This document shows positions 3,587 to 19,437 of a stretch of 19,894 bases of DNA, piece by piece. Source of the DNA: an uncultured Pseudomonadota bacterium (lineage in GTDB: Bacteria > Pseudomonadota > Gammaproteobacteria > Burkholderiales > SG8-39). Positions within the stretch are counted from its first letter, which is position 1, and every line of letters begins with the position of its first letter. The notes under the pieces were generated by a model. It had not been told where the DNA came from. It saw nothing but the letters and a program-made list of their open reading frames with translations, and did no database searches. Position numbers and translations under genes: made by a program. The stretch is from contig CAITSH010000415.1 in NCBI GenBank assembly GCA_903895005.1, forward strand, positions 1 to 19,894, in the 5' to 3' direction.

Positions 3587-4219
3587 ATGGTGGTGGCGGA
3601 TAGTTGGATTCTCCCCCCGATCCCCCTGCGTGCACCTTTGAGCGCGTTCCCCACCTCCTCCAGCGGCGTCCCCTACCTGCCCGACGGGTACTGCGACGCC
3701 GAACCGCCGGCAAAGGCAATGCCGGCGTGGTTACGCACCCTGCTTTTCGTGGCGTGCTACCTGCTGCTGCAGACGCTTTACGCGGGCGCCGCCGGCACTG
3801 CCGTCGAAAAAATATTTCTCCAGGATCTTGGCAGCAAACCGGCGGCACAGCTAATCGGCGTTTTGGCCCCGTCCCTGGATGTGCGCGCCGAGGGCACGAA
3901 AGTCACGGCACCGGGTGGCGGCATCAATATCAAAAACGGCTGTGAAGGTACGGATATCTATTTCCTGCTGGTTGCGGCGTTCACAGCCGTGTCGCTGCCT
4001 CTGGCCGCGCGCCTTCGCGGGCTCGCAATCGGCTTTGCTGTCGCCTTTACCCTGAATCAGGCAAGGATTACCGTGCTTTTTTTCGCCTTCCGCGCCGACA
4101 AATCCTTGTTCGACATGTTGCACACGAGCGCGGCACCGGTGGTTCTGGTCGTCGCCCTTGCGTTGTACTTTTACGCCTACCTCCACCATGCGCGAAGCAA
4201 TGCGGCCCTCGACGCTTGA
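3587..4219 (+). CDS. xrtH: Exosortase (XrtH-like), membrane transpeptidase for C-terminal sorting signals
   Basis: The 210-residue protein has several membrane helices and the exosortase/archaeosortase catalytic triad: Cys in 'NGCEG' (C119), Arg in 'NQARIT' (R160) and His in 'LHTSAAP' (H179). These enzymes cut secreted proteins just inside a C-terminal signal and hand them on for surface attachment. The short length and one-cysteine NGCEG block fit exosortase H, which pairs with IPTLxxWG-CTERM signals. Two such signals occur in this window, supporting the H assignment. The next gene overlaps by 32 nt and the protease gene follows, forming one operon. The start at 3587 has a weak GGA upstream; an ATG at 3719 (MPAWLRTLLF) would give a 166-residue protein beginning at the first helix and is a real alternative. 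Confidence 0.72.
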   Translation: MVVADSWILPPIPLRAPLSAFPTSSSGVPYLPDGYCDAEPPAKAMPAWLRTLLFVACYLLLQTLYAGAAGTAVEKIFLQDLGSKPAAQLIGVLAPSLDVRAEGTKVTAPGGGINIKNGCEGTDIYFLLVAAFTAVSLPLAARLRGLAIGFAVAFTLNQARITVLFFAFRADKSLFDMLHTSAAPVVLVVALALYFYAYLHHARSNAALDA

Positions 4220-4856
4220 AATTGGCTTGCGCGCCGCATTGGGATTCGGCCTGTTCATTTGGCTGGGCGTCGCATTCGGACCGAAACTGCTTGCGGCCTT
4301 GCTGCCCTTGCACACCGCCGTACTGGAGACGCTCAACAGCAACTACCGCATCGAGCTGTCCCTGACCTCGGCAGGCGCGGACATGGTGATGTACCTGCGC
4401 GCCACGGTATTGCGCACAACGACGATCACCGGCGGCGGTGCGGCAGTAATGCTCTCTCCGGGCACCGTGCTCATGAATTCGACGGCAACGGGCCTGTTGC
4501 TGCAACCGGCGATCATGCTCGGCGGTCTCGTCATCGCCTGGCCCGCATCGGGCATACGGGAGTTGCTTGTGCGCATCGGTGCCGGCCTGGCGGCCCTGGG
4601 CTTCTGCGTTCTGCTGGCAATACCCTTGTATCTTTGCCTCTGCCTGCTGCAGTTGCCGGTACTCGCGTTTGCGCCGGGCGAGGTCACCCTCTCGATGCTG
4701 TTCGTCAAACTGATGCTAAATGGCGGAGCGCTCATCGTTGGCGCGCTGATGGGCGCAGCCGTCATCATCACCGCAACACGAATCACGCATCGCGCCGGTC
4801 TCGGGACGGCCGCGGTAACGCCGCCGTATGGCAGGCTCGGCGCCGGCTCTCCATGA
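4188..4856 (+). CDS. Exosortase-associated membrane protein
   Basis: The 222-residue protein has about four hydrophobic segments: residues about 10-35, 105-122, 128-155 and 165-190. Between the first two is a probable periplasmic stretch that includes 'NSNYRIELSLTSAG' and several Thr/Gly-rich strands. It starts inside the end of the exosortase gene (32-nt overlap; an ATG at 4200 is also possible), and its TGA overlaps the protease ATG as ATGA, so the three genes are translationally coupled. XrtH genes are often followed by a conserved membrane protein of unknown function, and the position, size and topology here fit it. The identification rests on context more than motifs. A role in presenting substrates to the exosortase or in anchoring them is inference. 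Confidence 0.6.
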   Translation: MREAMRPSTLEIGLRAALGFGLFIWLGVAFGPKLLAALLPLHTAVLETLNSNYRIELSLTSAGADMVMYLRATVLRTTTITGGGAAVMLSPGTVLMNSTATGLLLQPAIMLGGLVIAWPASGIRELLVRIGAGLAALGFCVLLAIPLYLCLCLLQLPVLAFAPGEVTLSMLFVKLMLNGGALIVGALMGAAVIITATRITHRAGLGTAAVTPPYGRLGAGSP

Positions 4857-7678
4857 TGCCCCTGTTGCCTAAAAGGCGCCCGCTCGAACACATCGCGCGC
4901 CGAGTGCTGATCGGTGTCTTGTGCCTCGCCGCACTCACCTGGCAGGGGGCCACCATCGCGGCCCCCGTGACGGTAAAGCCCCAGGCGCGCATCGCCGGCG
5001 CCATTGATGAAGCGGATCGCCTTTCAATGCATGACGACCGCCATCCTTTCGCGGTGGCGACCAACGAAACAGGCCGCGTTGCCGACGCCACCCGGTTCGA
5101 CCGCATGATTCTTTCGTTAAAGTCCGACGACGGGCAGGCGGCGGGCCTGCAGGCGTTTCTGGATGCCGTGCACGACCACAGGCATCCGGCCTTCGGTCAA
5201 TTCATGGACTCGCGCGAATTTGAACGCAGCTTCGGCGTCGCCGAGACCGATCTCGCACGCGTCACGGCCTGGCTTGAAAAACACGGCTTTGTCATCGACG
5301 AGATTCCCGCGGGGCGCCGCGCCATCGTGTTCAGCGGCACCGCGGCACAGTTGAGGGCGGCCTTTGGTGCCGACATGCGCCGTTACCGTGTAGGCAACCG
5401 CGACCACATCGCCAACGCCGCCCCCCTGCATTTGCCACGGGCGCTGGCGGAGGTCGTTGACGGCGTGGTCTCGCTGCATGATTTTCGCAGCCAGCCGATG
5501 CACGCGCGCACCCAACCGGTGCCCGGCTACACATCCGGAAGCACGCACTACCTTGCGGCGGGTGACTGGCAGACCATCTATAACGTAAAACCCCTCTACA
5601 ACCGCGGCGTTGACGGAAGCGGCAAATCCATTGCCATCCTCGGCAGATCCAACGTAAACCTCGCAGACGTACAAACATTCCGCAACGCCATGAACCTGCC
5701 GGCAAACACCCCACAGGTCATCATCAATGGCGCCGACCCCGGCCTGGTGAGCGGCGATCACGGCGAGTCGGACCTTGACCTTCAATGGGCCGGCGCGGTG
5801 GCCCCTGCGGCAACGATCAAATTCGTCACCTCCGCGAGCACGGGCACGAGCGACGGCATCACCCTTTCGGCGCAATACGCCGTCAGCAACAACATAGCCG
5901 ATGTAATCAGCCTGAGTTACGGCCAGTGCGAAAGCAGCATGGGCCGTACCCAAGTCAATTTTTACAACAGTTTGTGGCAACAAGCGGCGACTCAGGGTAT
6001 CAGCGTGGCGGTTTCATCCGGCGACAGCGGTGCCGCCGGATGCGATACCGCAAGCGCCACGACGGCGACCCACGGACTGGGCGTGAACGGACTGTGCACC
6101 TCGCCTTTCAGCACCTGCGTGGGCGGTACGCAATTCGCGGATACCGCCAACCCCGCCCTTTACTGGTCCGCCGGCAATGGCGCCGGACTGCAGTCAGCGA
6201 TCTCCTATATCCCCGAGACCGTGTGGAATGAAAGCGGCAGCCAGGGCGGGAGCGGACTGTGGGCAAGCGGCGGTGGCGCAAGCCGCTTTATCGCCAAGCC
6301 TTCCTGGCAAACAACGCCGGGCGTGCCCAATGACACCAAACGCCATGTCCCCGATGTGGCGCTCGCGGCGGCGACCCACGACGGCTATCTTGTGTACTCG
6401 AGCGACAACGCAACCAACACGCAGAACCTTTACGTCTTCGGCGGCACTTCGGCGGCGGCACCGTCGTTTGCGGGCCTACTGGCCCTGGTGGTGCAAAGCA
6501 CCGGGTATCGACAGGGCAACGCCAACCCCCGCTTGTACGGCCTCGCGTCGGCGCAAGCGGCCAACGGCACGCCCGCCTATTTTCACCAGATCACCGGGGG
6601 CAACAACAGTGTCCCCGGCGTCACCGGGTTTGCCGCCAGTACAAGCAGTCCCTACTACAACCAGGCGACCGGATTGGGTTCGGTCGACGCCAATGTGCTG
6701 GTCAGTCGGTGGACCGATTTGTTGCCGACGACCAGCATCACACTGAGTGCGACGCCCAACCCCGGAACCGTCGGACAGACCGTTAGCCTGAGCGCCGTGG
6801 TCAGCGGCGCGGCGCCGACCGGCACGGTCCAGTTCAAGGACGGCACCACTTCGCTTGGCGCCCCGGTCGCCCTTGCCGCGGGCAGCGCAAGCCTGTCCGG
6901 GCTATTGCTCTCTGCCGGGACGCACAGTCTCAGCGCGAGCTATTCCGGCGATGCCGCCAATCAAGCCAGCGTTTCCGCAAGCCTGACTCAAACCATGCTG
7001 GCGGTGGCTTCGGTATCGGTGGGCGCCGCGCCTGCAGGCATCATAGCCGGCGGGGCGGTATCGCTCACTGCGAACGTCAGCGGCGCGTCACCTACCGGGA
7101 CGATCCAGTTCAAGGACGGCGGTGCAAATCTCGGCTCCGTCATCACGCTGGCGGGCAGCACGGCGACCTTGAACACCAACACACTGCTCACCGCCGCCAA
7201 TCACAGCATCACAGCCCAATATTCAGGCGACGCACTCAACACACCGGCCGCTTCAGCGGCACTGCTGCTGCCGGTGAGCAAGGCGGTTGCGAGCGTAGTG
7301 CTCACCGCCACGCCCATTGCCGTCACGGCAGGTGACACGGTAAGCATTACCGCGAGCGTAAGCGGGGCGGCTCCGACCGGCAGCGTGCAGTTCCTCAGCG
7401 GCGGCACCAACCTGGGCGCACCGGTGCCGCTTGCAAGCGGCAGCACCACCCTTGCCACGACTGCACTGGCCGTCGGGAGTAACGCTGTTACCGCAATCTA
7501 CTTGGGCGATGCCAACAACCTTGCTGCAAGCGCCGCCGCGGTCAGCGTCAGCGTCGCTGCAGCAACCGGGGGCGGCACCGACGCCGCGGATGTGCCGACG
7601 CTGCCAGAATGGGCCATGCTGTTCCTCGCAAGCCTGCTGCTTTTGGCCAGTTGCAAGCCGCAGGCGGCTCGGCGCTAA
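4853..7678 (+). CDS. Secreted sedolisin (S53) protease with Ig-like repeats and IPTL-CTERM-like sorting signal
   Basis: The protein has 941 residues. Order: signal peptide (about 1-37, 'VLIGVLCLAAL'), activation prodomain (about 60-230), S53 catalytic domain (about 240-620), three Ig-like repeats (about 625-895), Gly/Asp linker and sorting signal (913-941). Sedolisins are serine-carboxyl proteases, often acid-active and self-processing. Their residues are visible as E305 and D309 in 'GESDLDLQW', the oxyanion Asp D391 in 'SSGDSGA', and the nucleophile S533 in 'GGTSAAAP'. The C-terminus reads DVPTLPEWA, then a hydrophobic helix and KPQAARR, matching the IPTLxxWG-CTERM pattern with Ala for Gly. 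The start at 4853 overlaps the preceding TGA by 4 nt. The frame is open upstream to 4259, but that part is a shadow of the membrane gene. It is the likely in-operon substrate of the exosortase. Confidence 0.88.
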   Translation: MMPLLPKRRPLEHIARRVLIGVLCLAALTWQGATIAAPVTVKPQARIAGAIDEADRLSMHDDRHPFAVATNETGRVADATRFDRMILSLKSDDGQAAGLQAFLDAVHDHRHPAFGQFMDSREFERSFGVAETDLARVTAWLEKHGFVIDEIPAGRRAIVFSGTAAQLRAAFGADMRRYRVGNRDHIANAAPLHLPRALAEVVDGVVSLHDFRSQPMHARTQPVPGYTSGSTHYLAAGDWQTIYNVKPLYNRGVDGSGKSIAILGRSNVNLADVQTFRNAMNLPANTPQVIINGADPGLVSGDHGESDLDLQWAGAVAPAATIKFVTSASTGTSDGITLSAQYAVSNNIADVISLSYGQCESSMGRTQVNFYNSLWQQAATQGISVAVSSGDSGAAGCDTASATTATHGLGVNGLCTSPFSTCVGGTQFADTANPALYWSAGNGAGLQSAISYIPETVWNESGSQGGSGLWASGGGASRFIAKPSWQTTPGVPNDTKRHVPDVALAAATHDGYLVYSSDNATNTQNLYVFGGTSAAAPSFAGLLALVVQSTGYRQGNANPRLYGLASAQAANGTPAYFHQITGGNNSVPGVTGFAASTSSPYYNQATGLGSVDANVLVSRWTDLLPTTSITLSATPNPGTVGQTVSLSAVVSGAAPTGTVQFKDGTTSLGAPVALAAGSASLSGLLLSAGTHSLSASYSGDAANQASVSASLTQTMLAVASVSVGAAPAGIIAGGAVSLTANVSGASPTGTIQFKDGGANLGSVITLAGSTATLNTNTLLTAANHSITAQYSGDALNTPAASAALLLPVSKAVASVVLTATPIAVTAGDTVSITASVSGAAPTGSVQFLSGGTNLGAPVPLASGSTTLATTALAVGSNAVTAIYLGDANNLAASAAAVSVSVAAATGGGTDAADVPTLPEWAMLFLASLLLLASCKPQAARR
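6726..7555 (+). repeat. Three tandem Ig-like repeat modules within the S53 protease gene
   Basis: Three units carry the core 'SGAAPTGTVQF', 'SGASPTGTIQF' and 'SGAAPTGSVQF', followed by a 'YSGD/YLGD' closing strand. The CAGTT codons of the three QF motifs start at 6830, 7106 and 7388, so the spacing is 92 and then 94 residues. They match bacterial Ig-like (Big_3_5 type) stalk domains that hold a catalytic domain away from the cell surface. The DNA has diverged enough that the duplication is not recent. Confidence 0.8.
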
Positions 7679-7730: not shown

Positions 7731-7775
7731 AAAAGAAAAGGGCCGGAAACCCGCGCAAATCGGGCATTTCCGGCC
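7731..7775 (-). terminator. Rho-independent terminator of the PEP-CTERM gene (GGAAACCC hairpin, copy B)
   Basis: GGCCGGAAA (7741-7749) pairs perfectly with TTTCCGGCC (7767-7775), extended by CCCG/CGGG. Read on the minus strand the stem is followed by CTTTTCTTTT (7740-7731), as expected for a terminator after the stop at 7813. Lying between convergent genes, it may also slow readthrough from the plus-strand operon. Confidence 0.75.
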
Positions 7776-7812
7776 ATCGGGCCCGGCGGCCGGAAACGTC
7801 ACCACAACGCGG

Positions 7813-8655
7813 TTAAACGCTGCCTTGCTTCCTGCGGCGCGCCATTAAACCGACCAAGCCCAATCCAGCGAGCAACATGGCGTAGGTCTCGGGTTCGGGC
7901 ACGGCCGTTACAGAAGCGGTGAGACTGAAGTTGTCGATGGCAAGGCCATGATCGTTGTTGGGGTCGTTGCGCTCGGTCCAGCGCACCCACAGCGTGTCGC
8001 CCGCATTCCAGGAGGTATGGAGGGTGCCACCGCGGGCGGACATCAGGCCGACACCATTGCCATCGACTGCAGCGGCCGTTAGCTCGCCAAACTGCGGCGA
8101 GGCCCAGTCAAAGCTGCCACCCGGCGCGTTCCACGTGGTGACTGCGCCGAACGTATTGCCAAACCCGTACTCAAGAACCATGGTTTGCGGGAAGGATCCC
8201 ACGGTACCGGAGGTGACGCCGCCCTTGCGCCACTGCTCGCCATCAAAGGCGATGTTCACTGCGTCAAACGCCGCACCGGAGGTGTTGGTCACGGCCACAG
8301 CCATCCAACCCGCAATCGCTCCGCTCACCGGTGCGCCGAAATATGCGCCTGCGGAGCCGAGTCCGCCGAGCGCGCGTTCCGTACTGCCGGTTGCGCCATA
8401 GCTGTAAAAACTTCCTGCGTTGCTGGCGCCGTTATCCGCCCGGTACGCGGTGATGGCGTTGCTGTCCTTGGTGAACAGCGACCAACCCGAGATGGTTGAA
8501 TCATTCGCCCAGACGTTTGCCGTACCGGTCGTTGCGAGCGAGTCGAAAGACTCGGCATACGTACCGCCGGCATACCCGACCGCGGCCTGGGCTGAAGAGA
8601 GACCCGCCAACAGCAAGGCGGCGGGCAGCGCGGCGAAAACTGATTTGCGAAGCAT
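7813..8655 (-). CDS. PEP-CTERM sorting-domain protein, function unknown
   Basis: The 280-residue secreted protein has a signal peptide (MLRKSVFAALPAALLLAG, cleavage likely after AQA at about residue 24), a beta-rich body, and a canonical C-terminal signal VPEPETYAMLLAGLGLVGL followed by MARRR. The body contains 'ESFDSLATTGT', 'RALGGLGS', 'FDGEQWR' and 'LAIDNFSLTA', a pattern I associate with a widespread PEP-CTERM family lacking a known activity. The start at 8655 has AGGGGA 6 nt upstream. The frame extends upstream to 9090, but that part is Arg/Ala-rich and not convincing. It is last of three minus-strand genes and has a T-run terminator. Its signal is the VPEP type, unlike the IPTL-type signals of the protease and nucleotidase, so an exosortase outside the window probably handles it. 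Confidence 0.85.
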   Translation of the reverse strand: MLRKSVFAALPAALLLAGLSSAQAAVGYAGGTYAESFDSLATTGTANVWANDSTISGWSLFTKDSNAITAYRADNGASNAGSFYSYGATGSTERALGGLGSAGAYFGAPVSGAIAGWMAVAVTNTSGAAFDAVNIAFDGEQWRKGGVTSGTVGSFPQTMVLEYGFGNTFGAVTTWNAPGGSFDWASPQFGELTAAAVDGNGVGLMSARGGTLHTSWNAGDTLWVRWTERNDPNNDHGLAIDNFSLTASVTAVPEPETYAMLLAGLGLVGLMARRRKQGSV

Positions 8656-8689
8656 GAGTATTCCCCTGATGTGATTTGGTGATTGACGC

Positions 8690-9251: not shown

Positions 9252-12200
9252 TCAAGCGCTGAATGTGGCGGGTGCGCGCCGTGAACGACGGTGCATCGCG
9301 CCAAGCATGCAAAGCGCCAGCAGGACGACCGCCCAATCCGGGAGCGGTACATCGCCGTCGTCGCCGCCGCCTGCAGTACCTGAGGCCGTAATCGCGAAGC
9401 TGCGCACCACGCTTGGCGCCGCAGCGTAGACCGTGTCACCGGGCTGGGTCGCGCTGATCTGGCAGGTACCAGTCGCCACGAGCGTCACCGTTGCGCCGGA
9501 CACCGAGCAAACCGAGACGCTGAGCGATGCGAACTGTACCGGCAGGTTCGACGTGGCGCTGGCACTCAGGTTGAAGTTTCCGCTTCCCAACACGCGATCA
9601 CCCAGGGTGCCGAAGTTGATGGTCTGCGCCAGCGCCTGCGCGGTGAAGCTGCGCGTGGCGCTCGCCGGCTGCCAGTAACCCACATCCCCGGCCTGGCTCG
9701 CCAGCACCGTGCAAGTGCCGGCTGCAAACGTCGTAACCACGTCGCCGGCCACCGCACAGACCGTCGCGGTCTGGCTGCTGAATGTTACGGGCAGGCCCGA
9801 GCTGGCCGTCGCCGAGAGCGTGAAGGAAGAGCCGACCGGCACCGACGCAGGCTGTGTAAAGTCAATGGTCTGCACCAGCCCGATCGCCGGCTGGTAATGC
9901 ACGCCGGTATGTGCAAACGCAGGGGTGGGCTCCACCCCGCCAAGATCGTCGGTGGCGACGCTGTAAAACTCGTAATACCCGGCGCCCGCGGGGAAACTGA
10001 AGGTAGTGGTGTAGGGTGCGCTCGTGTCGGCCGCACCGGTTTGCGTCCAGGCGCCCCAGTTCGTGTTATCAGCGGAGTAACGGTAGAAGAAGCTCACGTT
10101 CGCAACCGAAGAGGCGCTCGCCTGCGTATTGACCTGCAACACCGGCGCGTTGCTGCCGAATTCTTTCGCATCAAAACCGTAGCTTGGCGCGGTCGTGTCC
10201 GCGGAATTTTCCGTGACGGGCTTGACCAGCAGCGAAACGGTCTTGTCGCCGGCGAACTGCCCCTGTACGAACGAGGTCACGTTCCAGTTGTACCAGACGT
10301 TGGTGGTGCCCGAACTCAGGGTCTGCGTGTCAAGCACCGATCCAAAGGCCGGCTGGTTGTTCCAGGTCACACCGGTTTCCGTCCAGGTGTCGTCGGTTGC
10401 GCCGCGCACCTCCACAGGCAGGGCCGCCCCGGCTGATCTCCAATTCCACAACTGCAGCGTCGCGCCGGTGATGGTCGAGCCCGCGGGGACGCCGGAGAGG
10501 TCGAATTTGAGCCACGCCCGCTCGTTGCCAAAGGAACTGGTGCTGCTGCTCTGAATGAAAAGATTGTTGCTGGTGCCGAAGTTGCTGCCCGGAACACCGC
10601 TTTCAACCTGCGCATCGGCCACAGGCGCGAGCGCAAAGCCCCCACCGGTGATGCCCGCCGTCGCGCTTAGCGTGATCGGCGAGCTGGCGTTGCCGTTTTG
10701 CGCATCGACACGCGAACTCACCGCCGAGGCGGCCGCGAGCGGCGCGCCGCTTACCACCGCCTTATCACCGCGGAAACGGAAGGCGAAATTCTCCATGGTC
10801 AGCACACCGCTGACTTCCAGCGTGTCGCCGACGTTGCCCGGCAGGCTCATCGCGGTGAATCCGGTCTTGTCCCACAGCTTGAGGCTGAGGTTGTTCTGGT
10901 CCGCCACGGTGTCCGCGGCGGTCTTTTTGGCGAGGAACTTGACGTAGTGGTTCTTGTAATTGTCGTTCAGGAAGGCGCTGATCGAGGACATGAAGGCCGG
11001 TTTTGCGAGACTGGGATCGCTCCCGAGTATCTTGAACTCGACGCCATCGCCATACACCCCCTCCTGGTCGACGAACTCCGGGTTGCCGCCGAAAAAGCTA
11101 GCCTTGCCCCAGACCTCGATGATGTCACCTGGCTTGAGCACGCCGGCCTTGAAACCCAGGAAGCTGCGATACAGTTCCTGTTCCGCAAGCCGGTTGGACG
11201 CATTGATGCTGCCGTCGGCATTGACAAGATTGGTCGGCACCTGCTTGCTGCCGCGTCGCGCGAGGGTCTCCGGCGTGGCACTCAAAAGTCGGATGAAGGC
11301 GTTCTCAAAGGTCGGCTTGGTGTCGTTGTCGTTGAGCATCGTGATCACCGCACGGTAGCCGCCGGAATACTCTCCGTTGAAGTGGTAGCGGTCACCGCCG
11401 ACCGAGTACGCGGTCGCCGGGCTGGCGTGCTGTGTGCTCATGAACTCGATCAGGCTGTCGCGCACAAGACCGTTGGCGGGATCCGCCTCGGCCGAAATTC
11501 CGGTCGGCCACGTGTAGCCCGCCGGCGGATGGGCCAGCATGTAGTTGTTGATCGCCACCTTGTACACCGTCGACAAGCCGATGGGCTGTCCGTTCATCTT
11601 GACGCTGGTGGCGATCCCGTCGAACGCCGTCACATCGAGCGCGGATGAAAAGCCCGCCCCCATGTTGGTCGCCTTGAGGAAGTTCATGAGATCCTGGCCG
11701 GTCATGCTGATGCGCACATAGGTGTCATCGGCCCACGGAAAGGTTTCGTAGACCTGCAGGAAGGTCACCGGACCCGCGGGAATATCGGCGCGCACACCGC
11801 CGCCCGCCTCGATCGCAAGGTGACAGCCGCCGGTGCCCGCCCATATCTGGTCGCACTTCCATTTCATCGCATCGGTGATCCACTGCCCGGCGGTGTTGTT
11901 GCCGTTCCACGGGTACTCGTCGGCCGACCACCACTTCATGCGGTTGTCGAGCAACAGTCCGTCGTTCGTGTAACCGACCACCCGGTCCACCGGCACACCG
12001 GCGGACGCAAGGTACTGCGCTTTCAGGTTGTTGACATAGGCGAGCACCTCAGGGTCCGGCGTGATATCGGCGTTGCGCAGGACGTGCTGCGCCGCGCTCA
12101 GGTAACCACCGGTGCCAGAGACGTTGAGCTCGCCGATGTATTTCATGTAACTCGAGGACTCGGCGAACACGGTCTTGTAGTTGAGCTTGTAGGGCTGCCA

Positions 12201-13946
12201 GACGGTGTCGCTCCAGGTGTGCCAGTGCCCGGTGATGGCTATCTCGGGCACCTTCGCGTCCGCGGTGTCCGCAAGCACCGGGGTGGTCGGGTCGACGAGG
12301 TCGCTGTGACCGTCGTGCGTCAGCAATATCACAACGTCGGCACCCTGGTTGTTGCGCAGCTCGTTGACATAGGGGGCGATGTTGCAGGTGGCCGAACCGG
12401 TCCACTGGCAGTCAACGACGGTAAGCGTCGTCGCCAGGCTCGCCCCGACGGTCGCCGACGAAGTCGTGTAACCGATGATGCCGACCTTGGTGCCGTTCAC
12501 CGTCACCGTGGTGTAGGGCGGGAAGTGCTCGCAGGTCGGGTAGCGCGGATGCGCGGTGGTGCAGTTGAGGTCGCGCACGTTAGCCGAAATAACGGGCACG
12601 CCGGTGCCCGCCATGTGCTCCATGTTCTGGATATAACTCACATCGCGCACATCATGGTTGCCGACAACGAGCGCATCCAGCCCGCGAGCGCCGCGGCCGG
12701 GAACGGTCTTCAGCCGCGAGTGCAACAGCTCGTAGAACGCCGTCATACCGCCGTTGCCGTAGCCGTTGTTGGTGCAGTTGGTGCCCCCGACGCCGGTGCA
12801 ATTCATGTCGCCGACCGGGTTTCCTTCCGAAATATCGCCCCCGTCAAGCACCAGCGCCGAGGGCTTGGCCGCGGCAAGCGACATCAGCTTGCCCGCCAGA
12901 TGCGCCGCACCGCCAACGTCTTCGAACGTATCTGCCGCGCTGCCGTGCTGGCTTATCACCCATTTGTGTGGCGTCAGCCGCGCGTGCACGTCGTTCATGT
13001 GGAAGATCGTAAACGGGCTTGCCGCGCTCTTGTTGGCCGAGCAACTGGCCGTTGTGCCGCCGTTGATACCGCCGCAAGTCCACGTCCACGGACCGCTACC
13101 GCTGACCGCCGACGCCGTGCCCGCCGTGCAGAAGTTGGTGGTGGGAGCCGAGCCGAACGTCTGCCCGTTGGCCGGTCCGCAAGCACCGTTGATCGCGTTG
13201 GTCGACACCGCCACGCTGCCGCTGATTTCAAAATCGTTGGCCGTGGTGTTTGCGGTGTCAAACAAGTACCAGGTACCGGTCGTGCTGGTGCCGCCATAGT
13301 TGACAATGCGAAAGGTCACGCTGGTACCGGGTGCGACGTTTTGCAGGGCTGCGATGCCGCTCAGGTTGATGGCGGCGAGGGAAGCACCGGCGGTCGAAGT
13401 CGAGGTGTAGCTGACGGTCGTGATGTCGGTGAACGCTCCGCCGCCGATCTGGTATTGCACCACGCCCGTCGTCGCGCCGGTGGCTGAACGCCGGTAGTCA
13501 AACCGGCTGATCGAAGAGTAGGACACTTGAAAGCCGCTGTTGGCGGTGAGCGTGACGCTCGCAAACTGGTTGGCCACGATGGCGGCCGCCGCGTTCGCAC
13601 CGGTCCACGTATTGCCACCCCAACCACGTGCCGCACCAGAACCCGTGGTGCCCACGCCGCTGCCACGTACAAGGGTGCCGACCGTAAGATTGGCATCCGA
13701 CACGCTGGCTGCGAACGCGGCCGCGCCGAAATTGTTGCTTCCCCCGGGTTGGCTGTGCGTATCCCAGCCGGCCAGCACCGCAGCGAGCGCCGGGGCGGTG
13801 CACAGCACGGAAAATAAAAACGCCACCGCGCGGATAAACTTCCGCATCGGCCGTCCGCCACGTCCGTTGCGCGGATTGCGTGCGCTGGCCTCGTCGGGGG
13901 TGTGGTTCAGTGCTGCCCTGGGCAGCCCGTCGTGAGCGCGCGTCAT
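9252..13946 (-). CDS. Giant secreted metallophosphatase/5'-nucleotidase with DNRLRE-like, Ig-like and C-terminal sorting domains
   Basis: The protein has 1564 residues. Order: long N-terminal extension and signal peptide (core about 36-55, ending ALA), a beta-rich domain (about 56-245), a Cys-containing module 'NGACGPANGQTF...TCGGINGGTTASC' (about 250-305), a calcineurin-like phosphatase domain (about 313-600), a 5'-nucleotidase C-terminal domain ('IEAGGGVRADIPAGP', 'YETFPWADD'), an OB-like region ('GDIIEVWGKASFFGG'), a DNRLRE/CBM96-like domain ('RAWLKFDLSGVPAGSTITGA'), two Cys-containing Ig-like repeats, a Gly linker and a sorting signal (1532-1564). Metal ligands visible are D319/H321 (NDVH), N430/H431 (GNHD) and H574/H576 (GHWH). 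UshA-like enzymes hydrolyse extracellular nucleotides for phosphate and nucleoside salvage. The signal DVPLPDWA then helix then HRRSRR resembles that of the S53 protease. The start at 13946 has AGGGGA; the ATG at 13847 (MRKFIRAV) suits the signal peptide better but has only a weak ribosome site. Confidence 0.88.
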   Translation of the reverse strand: MTRAHDGLPRAALNHTPDEASARNPRNGRGGRPMRKFIRAVAFLFSVLCTAPALAAVLAGWDTHSQPGGSNNFGAAAFAASVSDANLTVGTLVRGSGVGTTGSGAARGWGGNTWTGANAAAAIVANQFASVTLTANSGFQVSYSSISRFDYRRSATGATTGVVQYQIGGGAFTDITTVSYTSTSTAGASLAAINLSGIAALQNVAPGTSVTFRIVNYGGTSTTGTWYLFDTANTTANDFEISGSVAVSTNAINGACGPANGQTFGSAPTTNFCTAGTASAVSGSGPWTWTCGGINGGTTASCSANKSAASPFTIFHMNDVHARLTPHKWVISQHGSAADTFEDVGGAAHLAGKLMSLAAAKPSALVLDGGDISEGNPVGDMNCTGVGGTNCTNNGYGNGGMTAFYELLHSRLKTVPGRGARGLDALVVGNHDVRDVSYIQNMEHMAGTGVPVISANVRDLNCTTAHPRYPTCEHFPPYTTVTVNGTKVGIIGYTTSSATVGASLATTLTVVDCQWTGSATCNIAPYVNELRNNQGADVVILLTHDGHSDLVDPTTPVLADTADAKVPEIAITGHWHTWSDTVWQPYKLNYKTVFAESSSYMKYIGELNVSGTGGYLSAAQHVLRNADITPDPEVLAYVNNLKAQYLASAGVPVDRVVGYTNDGLLLDNRMKWWSADEYPWNGNNTAGQWITDAMKWKCDQIWAGTGGCHLAIEAGGGVRADIPAGPVTFLQVYETFPWADDTYVRISMTGQDLMNFLKATNMGAGFSSALDVTAFDGIATSVKMNGQPIGLSTVYKVAINNYMLAHPPAGYTWPTGISAEADPANGLVRDSLIEFMSTQHASPATAYSVGGDRYHFNGEYSGGYRAVITMLNDNDTKPTFENAFIRLLSATPETLARRGSKQVPTNLVNADGSINASNRLAEQELYRSFLGFKAGVLKPGDIIEVWGKASFFGGNPEFVDQEGVYGDGVEFKILGSDPSLAKPAFMSSISAFLNDNYKNHYVKFLAKKTAADTVADQNNLSLKLWDKTGFTAMSLPGNVGDTLEVSGVLTMENFAFRFRGDKAVVSGAPLAAASAVSSRVDAQNGNASSPITLSATAGITGGGFALAPVADAQVESGVPGSNFGTSNNLFIQSSSTSSFGNERAWLKFDLSGVPAGSTITGATLQLWNWRSAGAALPVEVRGATDDTWTETGVTWNNQPAFGSVLDTQTLSSGTTNVWYNWNVTSFVQGQFAGDKTVSLLVKPVTENSADTTAPSYGFDAKEFGSNAPVLQVNTQASASSVANVSFFYRYSADNTNWGAWTQTGAADTSAPYTTTFSFPAGAGYYEFYSVATDDLGGVEPTPAFAHTGVHYQPAIGLVQTIDFTQPASVPVGSSFTLSATASSGLPVTFSSQTATVCAVAGDVVTTFAAGTCTVLASQAGDVGYWQPASATRSFTAQALAQTINFGTLGDRVLGSGNFNLSASATSNLPVQFASLSVSVCSVSGATVTLVATGTCQISATQPGDTVYAAAPSVVRSFAITASGTAGGGDDGDVPLPDWAVVLLALCMLGAMHRRSRRAPATFSA

Positions 13947-14465: not shown

Positions 14466-15446
14466 ATGACCGTACGCAACTTCATCACCTTGCTCGTAAC
14501 GACGGCCTCACTGCTCGGCGTACCCCTTGTCGCAACGGCGCAGGACGCGTACCCGAGCAAGCCCATCAACCTGATCGTGCCCTTCCCGCCTGGCGGGCAG
14601 GCGGATATTTCGGCGCGACCGCTTGCTGCGGCGCTGACGCAAATCCTCAAGCAGCCGGTGGTGGTGATCAACCGTCCGGGTGCCGCCGGTGCCATCGGCA
14701 ACCGTGCCGTCGCGGCGGCCGCGCCCGATGGCTACAACCTGCTGGTGACGCTTGCTCCCATCGTCACCATCCCGGTCGTCGAAAAAATGTTCGGCCGCGA
14801 CGTCTCGTATTCGATGGACCAGTTCACGCCGCTCGCGCTGCTTGCGGCTGACCCGCCGGTGCTGGTGGTCGGTGCCAACACGCCGTGGAAGAACGCGCGC
14901 GAATTCATCGCCGATGTCAAAAAGCAGCCGGATGAATTCGTCTACTCGCACTCGGGCCTCTATGGCCCCTCGCACCTGCCGATGGAAATGCTGCTGCAGG
15001 CGGTGGGCGGAAAAATGCGCGGCCTGCCGGCGGTGGGTGGCGGCCCGACCATGATGCTGGTGCTCGGCGGCAGTTCGCAGATGTGGGCCTCGCCGCCGGC
15101 GATGGCCGTACCGCAGGTGGCGAGCAGCAAGCTGCGCGCGCTGGTGTCATTCGGCGCGCAACGCCATCCGGCTTTCCCGGACACACCGACGCTCAAGGAA
15201 CTCGGTTATGACGCCGAGTATTACGTCTGGTCGGGCGTGTTCGCGCCGGCCGGCACGCCGCCGGCGATCGTGACCATCCTGCGCGACGCGATACGCAAGG
15301 CCGTGGTCTCGCCCGAATTCAAGACCGCGATGGAGAGCACCAAGTCACCGGCCACCTACATGGACGCGCCGGAGTTCCGCGACTACATCGCCAAGGACGC
15401 CGCGCGCATGCGCGTGGTGGTCGAGAAAATCGGCAAGGTCGAGTAA
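14466..15446 (+). CDS. Bug/TctC-family periplasmic solute-binding protein
   Basis: The 326-residue protein starts with a Sec signal peptide (MTVRNFITLLVTTASLLG, then VPLVATAQ, cleavage at about residue 26) and the family opening 'YPSKPINLIVPFPPGGQAD'. Further family blocks are 'VINRPGAAGAIGNRAVA', 'APDGYNLLVT', 'PAVGGGPTMMLVLGG' and 'VFAPAGTPPAIV'. Length is typical. Bug proteins bind carboxylates or other small acids in the periplasm for tripartite tricarboxylate transporters, or work as signalling receptors. No TctA/TctB genes are adjacent, so this is one of the many orphan copies usual in Burkholderiales, and its ligand is unknown. GAGG lies 7 nt before the ATG. The gene converges on a second TctC gene. 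Confidence 0.9.
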   Translation: MTVRNFITLLVTTASLLGVPLVATAQDAYPSKPINLIVPFPPGGQADISARPLAAALTQILKQPVVVINRPGAAGAIGNRAVAAAAPDGYNLLVTLAPIVTIPVVEKMFGRDVSYSMDQFTPLALLAADPPVLVVGANTPWKNAREFIADVKKQPDEFVYSHSGLYGPSHLPMEMLLQAVGGKMRGLPAVGGGPTMMLVLGGSSQMWASPPAMAVPQVASSKLRALVSFGAQRHPAFPDTPTLKELGYDAEYYVWSGVFAPAGTPPAIVTILRDAIRKAVVSPEFKTAMESTKSPATYMDAPEFRDYIAKDAARMRVVVEKIGKVE

Positions 15447-15524: not shown

Positions 15525-16514
15525 TCAGTCTGCGGTGATGCCGGCACCCTTGATGACGCCGCTCCACTTGTCGATCTCGGTTTTCAGGAAGCGGCCGAAC
15601 TCGGCGGCATCCTGCGGCTCGACGCTGGCGCCGACGTTGTTGAGTTTTTCGCGCACGCCCGGGTCGGCGAGGGCCTTGAGCATTTCGGCGCTGAGCCTGG
15701 CCAGAACATCCCTGGGCGTTCCCGCCGGCGCCAGCATGCCCCACCACACGCTCGCCTCGAACCCGGCCAGGCCCGCCTCGGAAAAGGTCGGCACCTCGGG
15801 CATCAGTGCAATGCGCTTGCCGCTTGCCATCGCCAGCGGCAGCAGGCGCTGCGCTCGCACATGCGGTATGGCCTCCAGCGGATTGATCACCATGAAGGAC
15901 AGGCGCTCGCCCAGCAGGTCGGTGATGGCGAGCGAGCCGCCCTTGTAGGGAATGTGCAGCACGTCCATGCCGGCGCGTGTTTTGAACAGCTCGGAGGCAA
16001 GATGGCCCGAGCTGCCGTTGCCGGCCGAGCCGTAATTGAGCTTGCCAGGCTGCGCCTTGGCGAGGGCGATCAACTCGGACAGCGTTTTGGCGCGCGAACC
16101 CGGAGCGACCACCAGCACCAGGGGCGCATACCCGACGCGCGCCACCGGCGCGAGGTCGCGCAGCGTATCAAAGGGCATCCTGGCGAAAAGCGCGCCGTTG
16201 GTGGCAAGGCCGTTGGCGCCCATCAACACGGTGTAACCGTCGGGCGCGGACTTGGCGACAAAGTCGGCGCCGAGGTTGGCGCTGGCACCCGGCTTGTTGT
16301 CGATGACAACCGGCACGCCCATTTGCGCCGACATTTGCTGCCCCACCGAACGGGCCACCACGTCAACCGCACCGCCGGCAGCAAAGGGCACGACGATATG
16401 AATCGGCTTTGACGGGAAAGCCTGCGCAAGCGCTTGCGTCGGCAACAGCGCGGGCAGCAGCGCCGCACTCAAAGATAAAGCGGCGCGCAGGCGTGCCAAG
16501 GGAATCAAAGCCAT
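15525..16514 (-). CDS. Bug/TctC-family periplasmic solute-binding protein (second copy)
   Basis: The 329-residue protein has a Sec signal peptide (MALIPLARLRAALSLSAALL, ending QALAQ at about residue 31) followed by 'AFPSKPIHIVVPFAAGGAVD'. Other family blocks are 'VIDNKPGASANLGADFVAK', 'APDGYTVLMG', 'LNYGSAGNGSSGHLASELFK', 'HIPYKGGSLAITDLLG' and 'MLAPAGTPRDVL'. These match the common Bug/TctC pattern more closely than the first copy, whose ligand loops read differently (SHSGLYGPSHLP, VGGGPT), so the two probably bind different acids. The start at 16514 is fixed by GGAGGA just upstream; the frame stays open to 16958 but that part looks noncoding. No transporter membrane genes are nearby. Confidence 0.92.
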   Translation of the reverse strand: MALIPLARLRAALSLSAALLPALLPTQALAQAFPSKPIHIVVPFAAGGAVDVVARSVGQQMSAQMGVPVVIDNKPGASANLGADFVAKSAPDGYTVLMGANGLATNGALFARMPFDTLRDLAPVARVGYAPLVLVVAPGSRAKTLSELIALAKAQPGKLNYGSAGNGSSGHLASELFKTRAGMDVLHIPYKGGSLAITDLLGERLSFMVINPLEAIPHVRAQRLLPLAMASGKRIALMPEVPTFSEAGLAGFEASVWWGMLAPAGTPRDVLARLSAEMLKALADPGVREKLNNVGASVEPQDAAEFGRFLKTEIDKWSGVIKGAGITAD

Positions 16515-16570
16515 GTTTCCTCCGGATGGGTCTGTGTTGTTCTGGGCTCTTGTGATTTCAGACTTCGAGA

Positions 16571-16584
16571 CTTCATATATCAAG
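16571..16584. promoter_or_regulatory. Near-palindromic candidate operator upstream of the second TctC gene
   Basis: CTTCATATATCAAG is palindromic except at positions 4 and 11. It lies 57 bp upstream of the start at 16514, where a repressor or activator site would be expected, and its ATATAT centre could also serve as a -10 region. No regulator gene is adjacent. Confidence 0.3.
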
Positions 16585-16690
16585 CGTGTCGCCATTTTGC
16601 GGCCACGGGCGCGCTGCGTAAATGGCATGGGCGCACTAGCAGATATGCCGGACTTGCATCGGAGTAGACGACACAGATGCCAGTAGCACG

Positions 16691-16716
16691 TCCCCTCCAC
16701 CGTCAAGGGGGAGGGA
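16691..16716. repeat. CCCTCC / GGAGGG hairpin, REP-like
   Basis: TCCCCTCC (16691-16698) and GGGGGAGGGA (16707-16716) flank ACCGTCAA and can form a six-pair CCCTCC/GGAGGG stem. Similar C-run/GTCAA/G-run elements are common between genes in GC-rich proteobacteria. Only one copy occurs in this window, so whether it is repeated in the genome cannot be judged here. Confidence 0.35.
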
Positions 16717-16861
16717 GTAAGTGCATCTCTTGACCGGTGGTATCGCAATTCGTACCCGCACATTGAATTCTTCGCGACTCGCACGCATATGCGCGGTAAC
16801 TCACAGATACCTTGAATCCCACATGGTGGGTATGGGTAGCAACAATAGGCGAAGACGGACG

Positions 16862-16902
16862 AAAAAAACGCTGGAAACCCTTGTCCAGCGCGGGTTTTCA
16901 GC
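16862..16902. repeat. GGAAACCC hairpin with A-run (copy D), not behind any visible gene
   Basis: GCTGGAAACCC (16870-16880) pairs with GGGTTTTCAGC (16892-16902) with one G-T wobble. Seven As precede it (16862-16868), so it reads as a terminator on the minus strand. No minus-strand gene ends there: it sits upstream of both the TctC and lon starts. It may be a moved copy, or a barrier to readthrough or antisense transcripts coming from lon. Confidence 0.6.
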
Positions 16903-16918
16903 CATCGCCAGTGCCGCG

Positions 16919-16947
16919 CTTGTTTCCATGCGGACCGCCCCCATGTA
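16919..16947 (+). promoter_or_regulatory. Sigma-32 (heat-shock) type promoter of lon
   Basis: CTTGTTT (16919-16925), 13 bp, then CCCCATGTA (16939-16947). The known sigma-32 pattern is CTTGAAA, 12-14 bp, CCCCATnTA; the -10 matches fully and the -35 keeps CTTG. Transcription would start near 16954, about 60 nt ahead of the chosen lon start. lon is a classic sigma-32 target. Confidence 0.65.
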
Positions 16948-17013
16948 TCCGCTATCACGAAGATCCCGCATCTTCAGGGGATGACTTCGACTCAACGGGA
17001 ACAGGACATCACC

Positions 17014-19437
17014 ATGGCACAGCTACTCGAACACGACACGAACGCCGGCACGCCGCACACGCCGCCGGGGTCCTCACGCAAGCAAAGCACCGACAAGCCC
17101 CTGCCCGAAAACGCATTGGTGCTCGTGCCCACACGCAAGCTGGTCGCCTTTCCGGGCATGATCGTGCCGGTTTCGGTGCGCCGAGAGCTGTCTTATGCCG
17201 CAGCACAATACGCCGCGCGCAACGAGCGCCCGGTGGGCCTGATCCTGCAGCAGGACCCGAACGTCGATGTGCCCGGCACGCAGGACCTCTACAACGTCGG
17301 CACCACGGCATCGGTTCTGCGCCAGATGAATGCACCCGACGGCGCACACCACATCGTCGTGCAGGGCCTGACACGCTTTCGCGTCATCGAGTTTCTCGAG
17401 GGCTACCCCTTCCTGGTCGCGCGCGTGGCGCAGCTCGACGAACAGGAAGCCGACGGCGACGACATCGAGGCGCGCGTGTTGCAACTACGCACCCGCGCCG
17501 AGGAAGCCGCCTCGCTGCTACCGCAAATGCCGCAGGAACTCGCCGGCACCCTCAACAACATCGCTTCACCCGGCGCGCTCGCGGACATCATCGCCGGCTT
17601 CATGGACGTCAAACCGGCCGAAAAACAGGCCGTGCTGCAAACCCTGGAAATCAAGCGCCGCCTTGACCTGGTGCTGGGCATGCTCGCGCACCGCATCGAG
17701 GTGTTGCGCCTGTCGGCGCAGATCGGCGAGCGCACCAAGGCGAGCCTGGACGGCACGCAGCGCGAGTACATGCTGCGCGAGCAGCTCAAGTCCATACAAA
17801 AGGAACTCGGCGAAGGCGACGAGGGTAACGCCGCCGAAGTGGACGAATTGCGCAAGGCCATCGCCGAAGCGGGCATGCCCGAGGACATCGAAAAGCAGGC
17901 GTTCAAGGAACTCAAGCGCTACGAGCGCATGTCCGAGAGTTCGGGCGAGCGCTCGATGCTGCGCACCTATCTTGACTGGCTGGTCGAGCTGCCGTGGAAG
18001 GCCCCCGAGGCCGACGCCATAGACATGCTTGAGGCGCGGCGCATTCTTGATGAGGACCACTTCGGCTTGGAGAACGTCAAGAAGCGCATTCTCGAATTTC
18101 TGGCCGTGCGCAAACTCAACCCGGCGGGCCACGGCCCCATCCTGTGCTTCGTCGGTCCGCCCGGCGTGGGCAAGACCTCGCTCGGCCAGAGCATCGCGCG
18201 GGCCCTCGGGCGCAAGTTCGTGCGCGTGGCCCTGGGCGGCGTGCACGACGAAGCCGAGATCCGCGGCCACAGGCGCACCTACATCGGCTCGCTGCCGGGC
18301 AACGTGATCCAGGCGATCAAGAAGGCCGGTACGCGCGGCGCGGTGATGTTGTTTGACGAAATCGACAAGCTGGGCGCCAGCGCGCGCGGCGATCCGTCAT
18401 CGGCGATGCTCGAGGTGCTCGACCCGGAACAGAACAACACCTTCCGCGACAACTACCTTGGCGTGCCCTATGACTTGTCGAGCATTTTGTTCATCGCCAC
18501 CGCGAACATGCTCGATTCGATCGCCGGGCCCTTGCGCGACCGCATGGAAATCATCCAGCTGCCTGGCTACACCCAGGAAGAAAAACGCGAAATCGCCAAA
18601 CGCTACCTCGTTGAGCGGCAGATGAAGGAAAACGGCCTCAAACCGGGCCAGGTTGAAATCACCCCGGCCGCGCTGGCCGCGCTGATCAGCGACTACACGC
18701 GCGAAGCGGGCGTGCGCTCGCTCGAACGCCAGGTCGGTGCGCTGTGCCGCCGCGCGGCGGTGCGCATTGCCGAAGGCGGCGCGGTGCCGGTAAAACTGGA
18801 CGTGGTGGAAGTAGCCGAAATATTGGGTGCCGCCAAGTTCGACAACGAAGTGGCGCAGCGCGTGAGCCTGCCCGGTGTGGCGACGGGGCTCGCGTGGACG
18901 CCGGTGGGCGGCGACATCCTCTTTATCGAGGCGAGCCGCACGCCCGGCAACGGCAGGTTGATCGTCACCGGGCAACTCGGTGACGTGATGAAGGAATCGG
19001 TACAGGCGGCACTCACGCTCGTAAAGTCACGGGCGGCGACGCTGGGCCTGGACAGCTCGGCCTTTGAGCGCACCGACGTGCACGTGCACGTGCCGGCGGG
19101 CGGGATTCCCAAAGACGGCCCCAGCGCCGGCGTGGCGATGTTCATCGCGCTGTCGTCGCTCTTTATCGACAAGCCGGTCAGCGCCGAAGTGGCCATGACC
19201 GGCGAGATCAGCCTGCGCGGCCTGGTACTGCCTGTCGGCGGCATCAAGGACAAGGTGCTTGCTGCCATGCGCGCCGGCATCAAAACGGTGATGCTCCCCG
19301 CGCGCAACAAGCGTGACCTCGATGAAGTGCCGGCCGAGGCGAAGGCCAAGCTCAACTTCGTCTGGCTGGAGACGGCGGATGATGCGCTGAAGGTGGCGGT
19401 GGGCGCGAAGCCTGCGCCTGCAGCAGAAGCGGTTTAG
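17014..19437 (+). CDS. lon: ATP-dependent Lon protease
   Basis: The 807-residue protein has the LonA order: N-terminal substrate-binding domain (about 30-230), coiled region ('QREYMLREQLKSIQKELGEG', about 245-265), AAA+ ATPase and Ser/Lys protease domain. Walker A is GPPGVGKTS with K387, Walker B is MLFDEIDK with D448/E449, and the catalytic pair is S704 (PKDGPSAG) and K747 (GGIKDK), 43 residues apart as in E. coli. Lon degrades misfolded and short-lived regulatory proteins in the cytoplasm. E. coli Lon has 784 residues; the extra here is mostly at the N-terminus. The start at 17014 (MAQLLEHD) has ACAGGA about 8 nt upstream. The ATG at 16981 abuts its AGGGG with no spacing and is less likely. 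The ATPase region differs from the usual housekeeping betaproteobacterial Lon, so it may be a second paralogue. Confidence 0.95.
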   Translation: MAQLLEHDTNAGTPHTPPGSSRKQSTDKPLPENALVLVPTRKLVAFPGMIVPVSVRRELSYAAAQYAARNERPVGLILQQDPNVDVPGTQDLYNVGTTASVLRQMNAPDGAHHIVVQGLTRFRVIEFLEGYPFLVARVAQLDEQEADGDDIEARVLQLRTRAEEAASLLPQMPQELAGTLNNIASPGALADIIAGFMDVKPAEKQAVLQTLEIKRRLDLVLGMLAHRIEVLRLSAQIGERTKASLDGTQREYMLREQLKSIQKELGEGDEGNAAEVDELRKAIAEAGMPEDIEKQAFKELKRYERMSESSGERSMLRTYLDWLVELPWKAPEADAIDMLEARRILDEDHFGLENVKKRILEFLAVRKLNPAGHGPILCFVGPPGVGKTSLGQSIARALGRKFVRVALGGVHDEAEIRGHRRTYIGSLPGNVIQAIKKAGTRGAVMLFDEIDKLGASARGDPSSAMLEVLDPEQNNTFRDNYLGVPYDLSSILFIATANMLDSIAGPLRDRMEIIQLPGYTQEEKREIAKRYLVERQMKENGLKPGQVEITPAALAALISDYTREAGVRSLERQVGALCRRAAVRIAEGGAVPVKLDVVEVAEILGAAKFDNEVAQRVSLPGVATGLAWTPVGGDILFIEASRTPGNGRLIVTGQLGDVMKESVQAALTLVKSRAATLGLDSSAFERTDVHVHVPAGGIPKDGPSAGVAMFIALSSLFIDKPVSAEVAMTGEISLRGLVLPVGGIKDKVLAAMRAGIKTVMLPARNKRDLDEVPAEAKAKLNFVWLETADDALKVAVGAKPAPAAEAV

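Follow-up and report, generated by a model that had tools for sequence, protein, structure and literature searches.

A compact exosortase module of the XrtM clade with an adjacent S53 protease as its probable cargo

Three consecutive genes in the window, the whole 19,894-nucleotide stretch of DNA that was analysed, probably make up a compact module for surface display, built around an XrtM-clade exosortase and with the adjacent protease as its sorted cargo. The best reading of the locus is that this exosortase has its own partner family and its own sorting signal, serves few targets, and has the protease as resident cargo. Read from the sequence, the gene overlaps, the predicted active-site residues of exosortase and protease, the pro-domain and the tail are all in place, and these parts recur in relatives.

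Organization of the locus

The exosortase gene (3587..4219, + strand) encodes 210 aa from the ATG at 3587, or 193 aa if the TTG at 3638 is the start. Its nearest relatives are 192-193 aa long and begin M-x-LP..GVPYLPDG, an N-terminus that the TTG fits equally well as the ATG; the TTG is a possible start correction. In these nearest relatives a GVPYLPDG(Y) stretch, residues 27-35 of the exosortase, is conserved before the first helix. The second gene (4188..4856, +) encodes a membrane protein of an unnamed family, here called the partner, and overlaps the exosortase gene by 32 nt (4188-4219). The third (4853..7678, +) encodes an S53 protease of the sedolisin/kumamolisin type and starts on the partner's stop codon within an ATGA (4853..4856, +), although a second ATG at 4856 would reduce the overlap to 1 nt. 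The three reading frames, both overlaps and the DVPTLPEWA tail described in the sequence-only reading are exact to the base.

In operons generally, ATGA overlaps are frequent; that the overlaps of this locus are more than chance is argued from their recurrence. An ATG giving the identical 32-nt exosortase/partner overlap is found at 8/37 relative loci (L001-L004, L012, L023, L025 and L032), and in the first scan a start codon for the partner lay within the exosortase gene at 32 of the 35 loci with a script-found partner frame. Six relatives have a same-strand S8 gene 3' of the partner, and in four of them the two genes share a stop/start overlap of 4 or 1 nt (ATGA in L005, GTGA in L006 and L014, TGATG in L010); in L029 the gap is about 40 nt, and in L155 an S8 start near the partner stop was sought and none was found. 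Because four S8 genes start on the partner stop codon, in loci that share both the gene order and the stop/start overlap of the window, the arrangement recurs with another protease family. The coupled arrangement with S53 is seen in none of six S53-linked relatives, of which four (L134-L137) have convergent genes with 10-20 nt between the stops and two (L138 and L025) have divergent ones.

Downstream, nested inverted repeats (GGCCGGAAA/TTTCCGGCC plus a 15-nt pair, 7741-7796) lie between the protease gene and a convergent gene (7813-8658, -) for a PEP-CTERM protein with a VPEPETYAMLL tail, and the repeats are possibly a shared terminator. A PEP-type exosortase, which that protein would need, is not seen within the window. 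Further on, a 5'-nucleotidase/CBM96 (DNRLRE) protein of 1564 aa (9252..13946, -) ends in the tail GDVPLPDWA (tail codons 9255-9362) and is a probable second cargo; its homologue at one relative locus (L036; phmmer, 1358 bits) has the tail GDAPLPLWA and is encoded some 0.9 kb away from the exosortase gene. The remaining stretch includes two frames that by eye resemble TctC/Bug-type binding proteins (14466-15446, +; 15525-16958, -) and one named by eye as a Lon protease (16981-19437, +).

Cargo and protease linkage in relatives

A scan of genome contigs yielded 37 relative exosortase loci, mostly from betaproteobacterial MAGs. A census of 60 relative loci reached about 8-10 kb to either side, and often less far where a contig stopped; at 45 of them cargo whose tail resembles D-V-P-(T)-L-P-x-W lay close to the exosortase, by a loose tail rule that also flagged 4/21 XrtH loci (two flagged tails, L167 and L175, are by eye not sorting tails). 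Cargo of the subtilisin protease clan occupies 19/60 loci (13 S8, 6 S53), and the other 26 cargo loci include LRR, TED/cyclase-like and 5'-nucleotidase proteins. No tailed cargo was seen at 15/60, several of them truncated where the contig stops; at L007, L013 and L024 its place is taken by neighbours of the PEP type. Several Thiobacillus loci show very large ORFs after a cargo of roughly 500 aa. Protease cargo was found at 0/21 XrtH loci, where two IPTLS/VPTLS tails were seen, and neither protease cargo nor such tails occurred in 19 other windows of XrtM-clade genomes. The difference between 19/60 and 0/21 gives Fisher p=0.002, and p=0.008 for the 14/54 that remain without six genus-targeted loci, in both cases treating loci as independent and leaving relatedness uncorrected. 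On the tree, the linkage requires at least 4 changes for S53, 7 for S8 and 10 for any protease.

The composition of the census bears on these figures. It takes in all 16 exosortase hits of the Aquabacterium commune genus, and L134-L138 and L140 were added because S53 had turned up there. Near copies are included (L028/L033, L008/L009/L145, L134-L136, L019/L021); L157, L159 and L164 were left out as duplicates, and a few exosortase hits lie outside it (G032:C11:298943, G070, and second hits in G003, G009, G026 and G034). Six of the 13 S8 proteases carry that label from Pfam, and the other seven from a profile built on these six; at L024 an S8 match truncated by the contig end was left out of the count.

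In the Aquabacterium commune genus (the genus of G011; 42 genomes), S53 (E<=1e-80) is present in 6 genomes and the XrtM-clade exosortase (E<=1e-15) in 10, all six S53 genomes being among the ten (p=4e-5). The two genes are adjacent in five of the six and on separate contigs in the other (G448), and an S53 gene also adjoins the exosortase in L025. Among 42 further XrtM-clade genomes two carry S53, adjacent in G023 and with none seen near an exosortase in G031; around the G031 copy, as around the extra S53 copies of G457 and G456, the stretch fetched contains no exosortase. An exosortase (P0019) and an S53 protein (P0061) that both come from contigs of length 7845 are a candidate for a further linked pair. 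A count of 1/399, for which only two candidates were scored per genome, is no measure of absence. The linkage that the sequence-only reading expected in relatives does recur outside the window. It is not found beside XrtH with an IPTL-CTERM tail, where that reading had placed it: S53 of the window type is present in 0/21 XrtH genomes, as is protease cargo at their loci.

These data also bear on a rival reading, in which the protease serves nutrition in a general way, at the surface or secreted, and is sorted by a different exosortase of the cell, its neighbourhood being due to chance or passive hitch-hiking. The orientation of S53 varies between lineages, S53 cargo is rare (the two of 42 genomes above, one of them away from the exosortase), and the view of the host genome extends to the window only, all of which would suit such an explanation. 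However, the linkage recurs with two protease families, the stop/start overlap is found repeatedly, and tail and enzyme tend to occur in the same genomes; all three speak against this explanation, and it is improbable.

The protease and its tail

The protease consists of a pro-domain (residues 84-211), a catalytic region (about 249-611), three Ig-like Big_3_5 repeats and a sorting tail. The pro-kumamolisin activation domain scores 88.6 bits (cut-off 23.5), which places the protein in S53, and in an alignment with kumamolisin E305, D309, D391 and S533 fall on its E, D, D and S positions (structure 1t1e has A at the Ser). The tail (7589..7675, +; ...TDAADVPTLPEWAMLFLASLLLLASCKPQAARR) comprises DVPTLPEW, a hydrophobic helix and a basic end. 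Among S53 homologues, such a tail ends 80 of the nearest 84 and 83/119 of the matches listed, which are the best 120 of 6039, with the line at 84 rows drawn after inspection. The motif before the helix is conserved across unrelated cargo, an invariance that is partly built in because the rows were picked by the motif rule. Six of nine cargo proteins tested have no CTERM match at E<=0.1 in NCBIfam models.

A short helix with a basic end could also serve as an uncut membrane anchor, in which case the exosortase would serve the 5'-nucleotidase and others and the operon would reflect shared regulation. Conservation of the pre-helix motif in unrelated cargo, with the caveat just given on how rows were picked, and its presence in 80 of the nearest 84 listed S53 homologues argue against this alternative, which is decidedly unlikely.

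IPTL tails pair with XrtH, and the sequence-only reading had taken the protease tail for a signal of the XrtH type. That assignment does not hold: the tail scores 17.0 bits against IPTL-CTERM (TIGR04174), under the cut-off of 20.5, and it has P where both XrtH-side tails seen (IPTLSQWG, VPTLSEWA) have S. The nucleotidase tail of the window (P0002) passes the same cut-off at 21.5 bits, as do two S8 cargo proteins, L005 (27.4 bits) and L010 (22.5 bits).

The exosortase and its partner

Membership of the exosortase superfamily is given by the generic model TIGR04178 (36.4 bits, cut-off 23) and by Pfam EpsH (27.5 bits, cut-off 25.7), and C119, R160 and H179 are invariant across 24 aligned sequences. 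The best NCBIfam match is XrtM (TIGR04300) at 61.5 bits, where the cut-off is 125; the XrtH model TIGR04177 gives 44.3 bits, where it is 86. None of ten relatives tested passes either cut-off, the best XrtM score being 105 bits, and one (L006) scores higher for XrtH (69 bits) than for XrtM (56 bits). In a tree of 91 proteins, unrooted, with bootstrap not settled and some long branches, 21 XrtH proteins fall on one side of a 100/100 branch and 60 XrtM-like rows, the window included, on the opposite side. A quick second tree, made without bootstrap or outgroup, groups the Methylomonas plasmid XrtM, on a long branch, with five relatives, on the same side of the XrtH branch as the window exosortase. 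XrtM in the wide sense of the clade is thus supported by the side of the tree and by a homologous partner: the gene after XrtM on the Methylomonas plasmid encodes a homologue of the window's partner (hhalign 96.9, E 1.8e-10). Given the trees and the absence of any tested relative that passes the XrtM or XrtH cut-off, the window exosortase is, on sequence grounds, a member of an unnamed group of the XrtM clade. At one relative locus (L035, 9998-10574) the exosortase frame is split into two overlapping pieces and adjoins an intact partner.

The partner profile matches 56/60 relative loci and 0/21 XrtH loci. No NCBIfam family was found for it when 30 members were scanned, with stray weak matches only; the window's own partner has no NCBIfam match at E<=1, and so no assignment to XrtH_assoc (NF041730), and no Pfam family. 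The one XrtH-side neighbour tested scores 164 bits to NF041730, and between XrtH neighbour and partner profiles no homology is detectable (hhalign probability 0.8). The AlphaFold model of the partner (pLDDT 89.6) predicts a long helix, a five-strand domain and three helices, a fold that matched nothing in the PDB.

The sequence-only reading had named the enzyme exosortase H, and had itself offered exosortase phylogeny as a possible refutation; the protein falls outside XrtH, under the cut-off, with a neighbour that is not XrtH_assoc, and the identity was rejected. An exosortase H serving an IPTL-CTERM protease would account for the resemblance of the S53 tail to IPTL-CTERM, for the three cargo tails that pass its cut-off and for the four-helix-like membrane neighbour that XrtH likewise has, yet it can hardly be credited against the score, the tree, the neighbours with no detectable homology, the finding of XrtH over cut-off in only 1/34 genomes that hold window-type relatives and the XrtH genomes without S53.

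Number of targets per genome

A profile of 40 tails (A3) was searched in 80 genomes. At E<=1e-6 it matched 37/42 XrtM-clade genomes, 1/21 XrtH genomes and 1/17 genomes with neither, and at E<=0.01 the numbers were 40, 6 and 3, an enrichment that is partly built in because A3 was made from such loci. Among XrtM-clade genomes that gave A3 no row or a duplicate row, 7/12 match, versus 2/38 (p=2e-4). Strong A3 tails number 0-9 per genome, with exactly one in 20 genomes, and in 16 of these 20 the tail lies within 10 kb of the exosortase; overall 32/76 tails are more than 10 kb away or on another contig. Strict one-to-one pairing was rejected on the genomes with up to nine tails, and the S53 copies without an exosortase (G457, G456, G031) and the remote A3 tails equally mean that pairing is not one to one. 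The XrtM-clade system, judged by these tails, serves few targets, not always one. The proposal of an exosortase with a dedicated, self-activating protease substrate therefore stands in part: the enzyme is made with a likely substrate, in keeping with tailed cargo at 45/60 and protease at 19/60 relative loci, and 'dedicated' needs softening, since genomes carry 0-9 such tails, many of them one.

A proposed module

In the module proposed here, the pre-pro-protease would be exported via its signal peptide (Sec), and its C-terminal helix would anchor it in the inner membrane, where the extracytoplasmic domain of the partner may help to hold or select the tail. The Cys-Arg-His site of the exosortase would cut at or near D-V-P-T-L-P-x-W, and the cut would free the protease or hand it to an acceptor en route to the surface, after which the protease would remove its own pro-domain. 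The stop/start overlaps may keep enzyme, partner and cargo in step. Probably the window exosortase also handles the downstream 5'-nucleotidase and a small number of further tails encoded elsewhere in its genome. A further suggestion, a doubtful one, is that the protease, once displayed, would act as a maturase on other surface proteins of the XrtM-clade system, in the window on the 5'-nucleotidase; because such a system would need a tethered processing protease, S8 and S53 might have come to occupy this position independently.

If the module is real, it would represent an exosortase subsystem that has a partner family of its own and a sorting signal mostly missed by NCBIfam models. It would also be a minimal unit, with enzyme, partner and substrate produced together, and small and tractable enough for studying how exosortases act on their substrates. 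The natural test organism is Aquabacterium commune, which is cultured and encodes three XrtM-clade exosortases, with no XrtH scoring over the cut-off.

Comparison with known systems

The closest known relative is XrtM (TIGR04300) of the Methylomonas plasmids NZ_CP014361 and NZ_CP023670, which is likewise a small exosortase with an overlapping membrane neighbour homologous to the partner. The window exosortase differs in being about 27% identical to it and in reaching about half of the model's cut-off, and the plasmid XrtM adjoins RHS genes, with no such protease seen in the stretch. On these plasmids (L205, L206) XrtM and its partner gene lie beside RHS-repeat and conjugation genes. The XrtH system, with XrtH_assoc and IPTL-CTERM, also joins an exosortase to an adjacent membrane protein and uses a tail of the P-T-L-x-x-W type; it differs in its separate clade, in a partner with no detectable homology and in the S of the tails seen at its loci. 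Kumamolisin and tripeptidyl-peptidase 1 share the S53 pro-domain and the E/D/D/S residues, but have neither the three Ig-like repeats nor the sorting tail of the window protein. Rhombosortase/GlyGly-CTERM is the source of the idea that a sorting enzyme can be dedicated to a single target encoded next to it; Haft and Varghese (2011; PMC3237569) give adjacency of enzyme and lone target in 16/21 single-target genomes. The pattern here is similar, with the tail within 10 kb of the exosortase in 16/20 single-tail genomes; in contrast, the enzyme of the present system is unrelated, genomes often carry several tails, and proteases recur as its neighbour.
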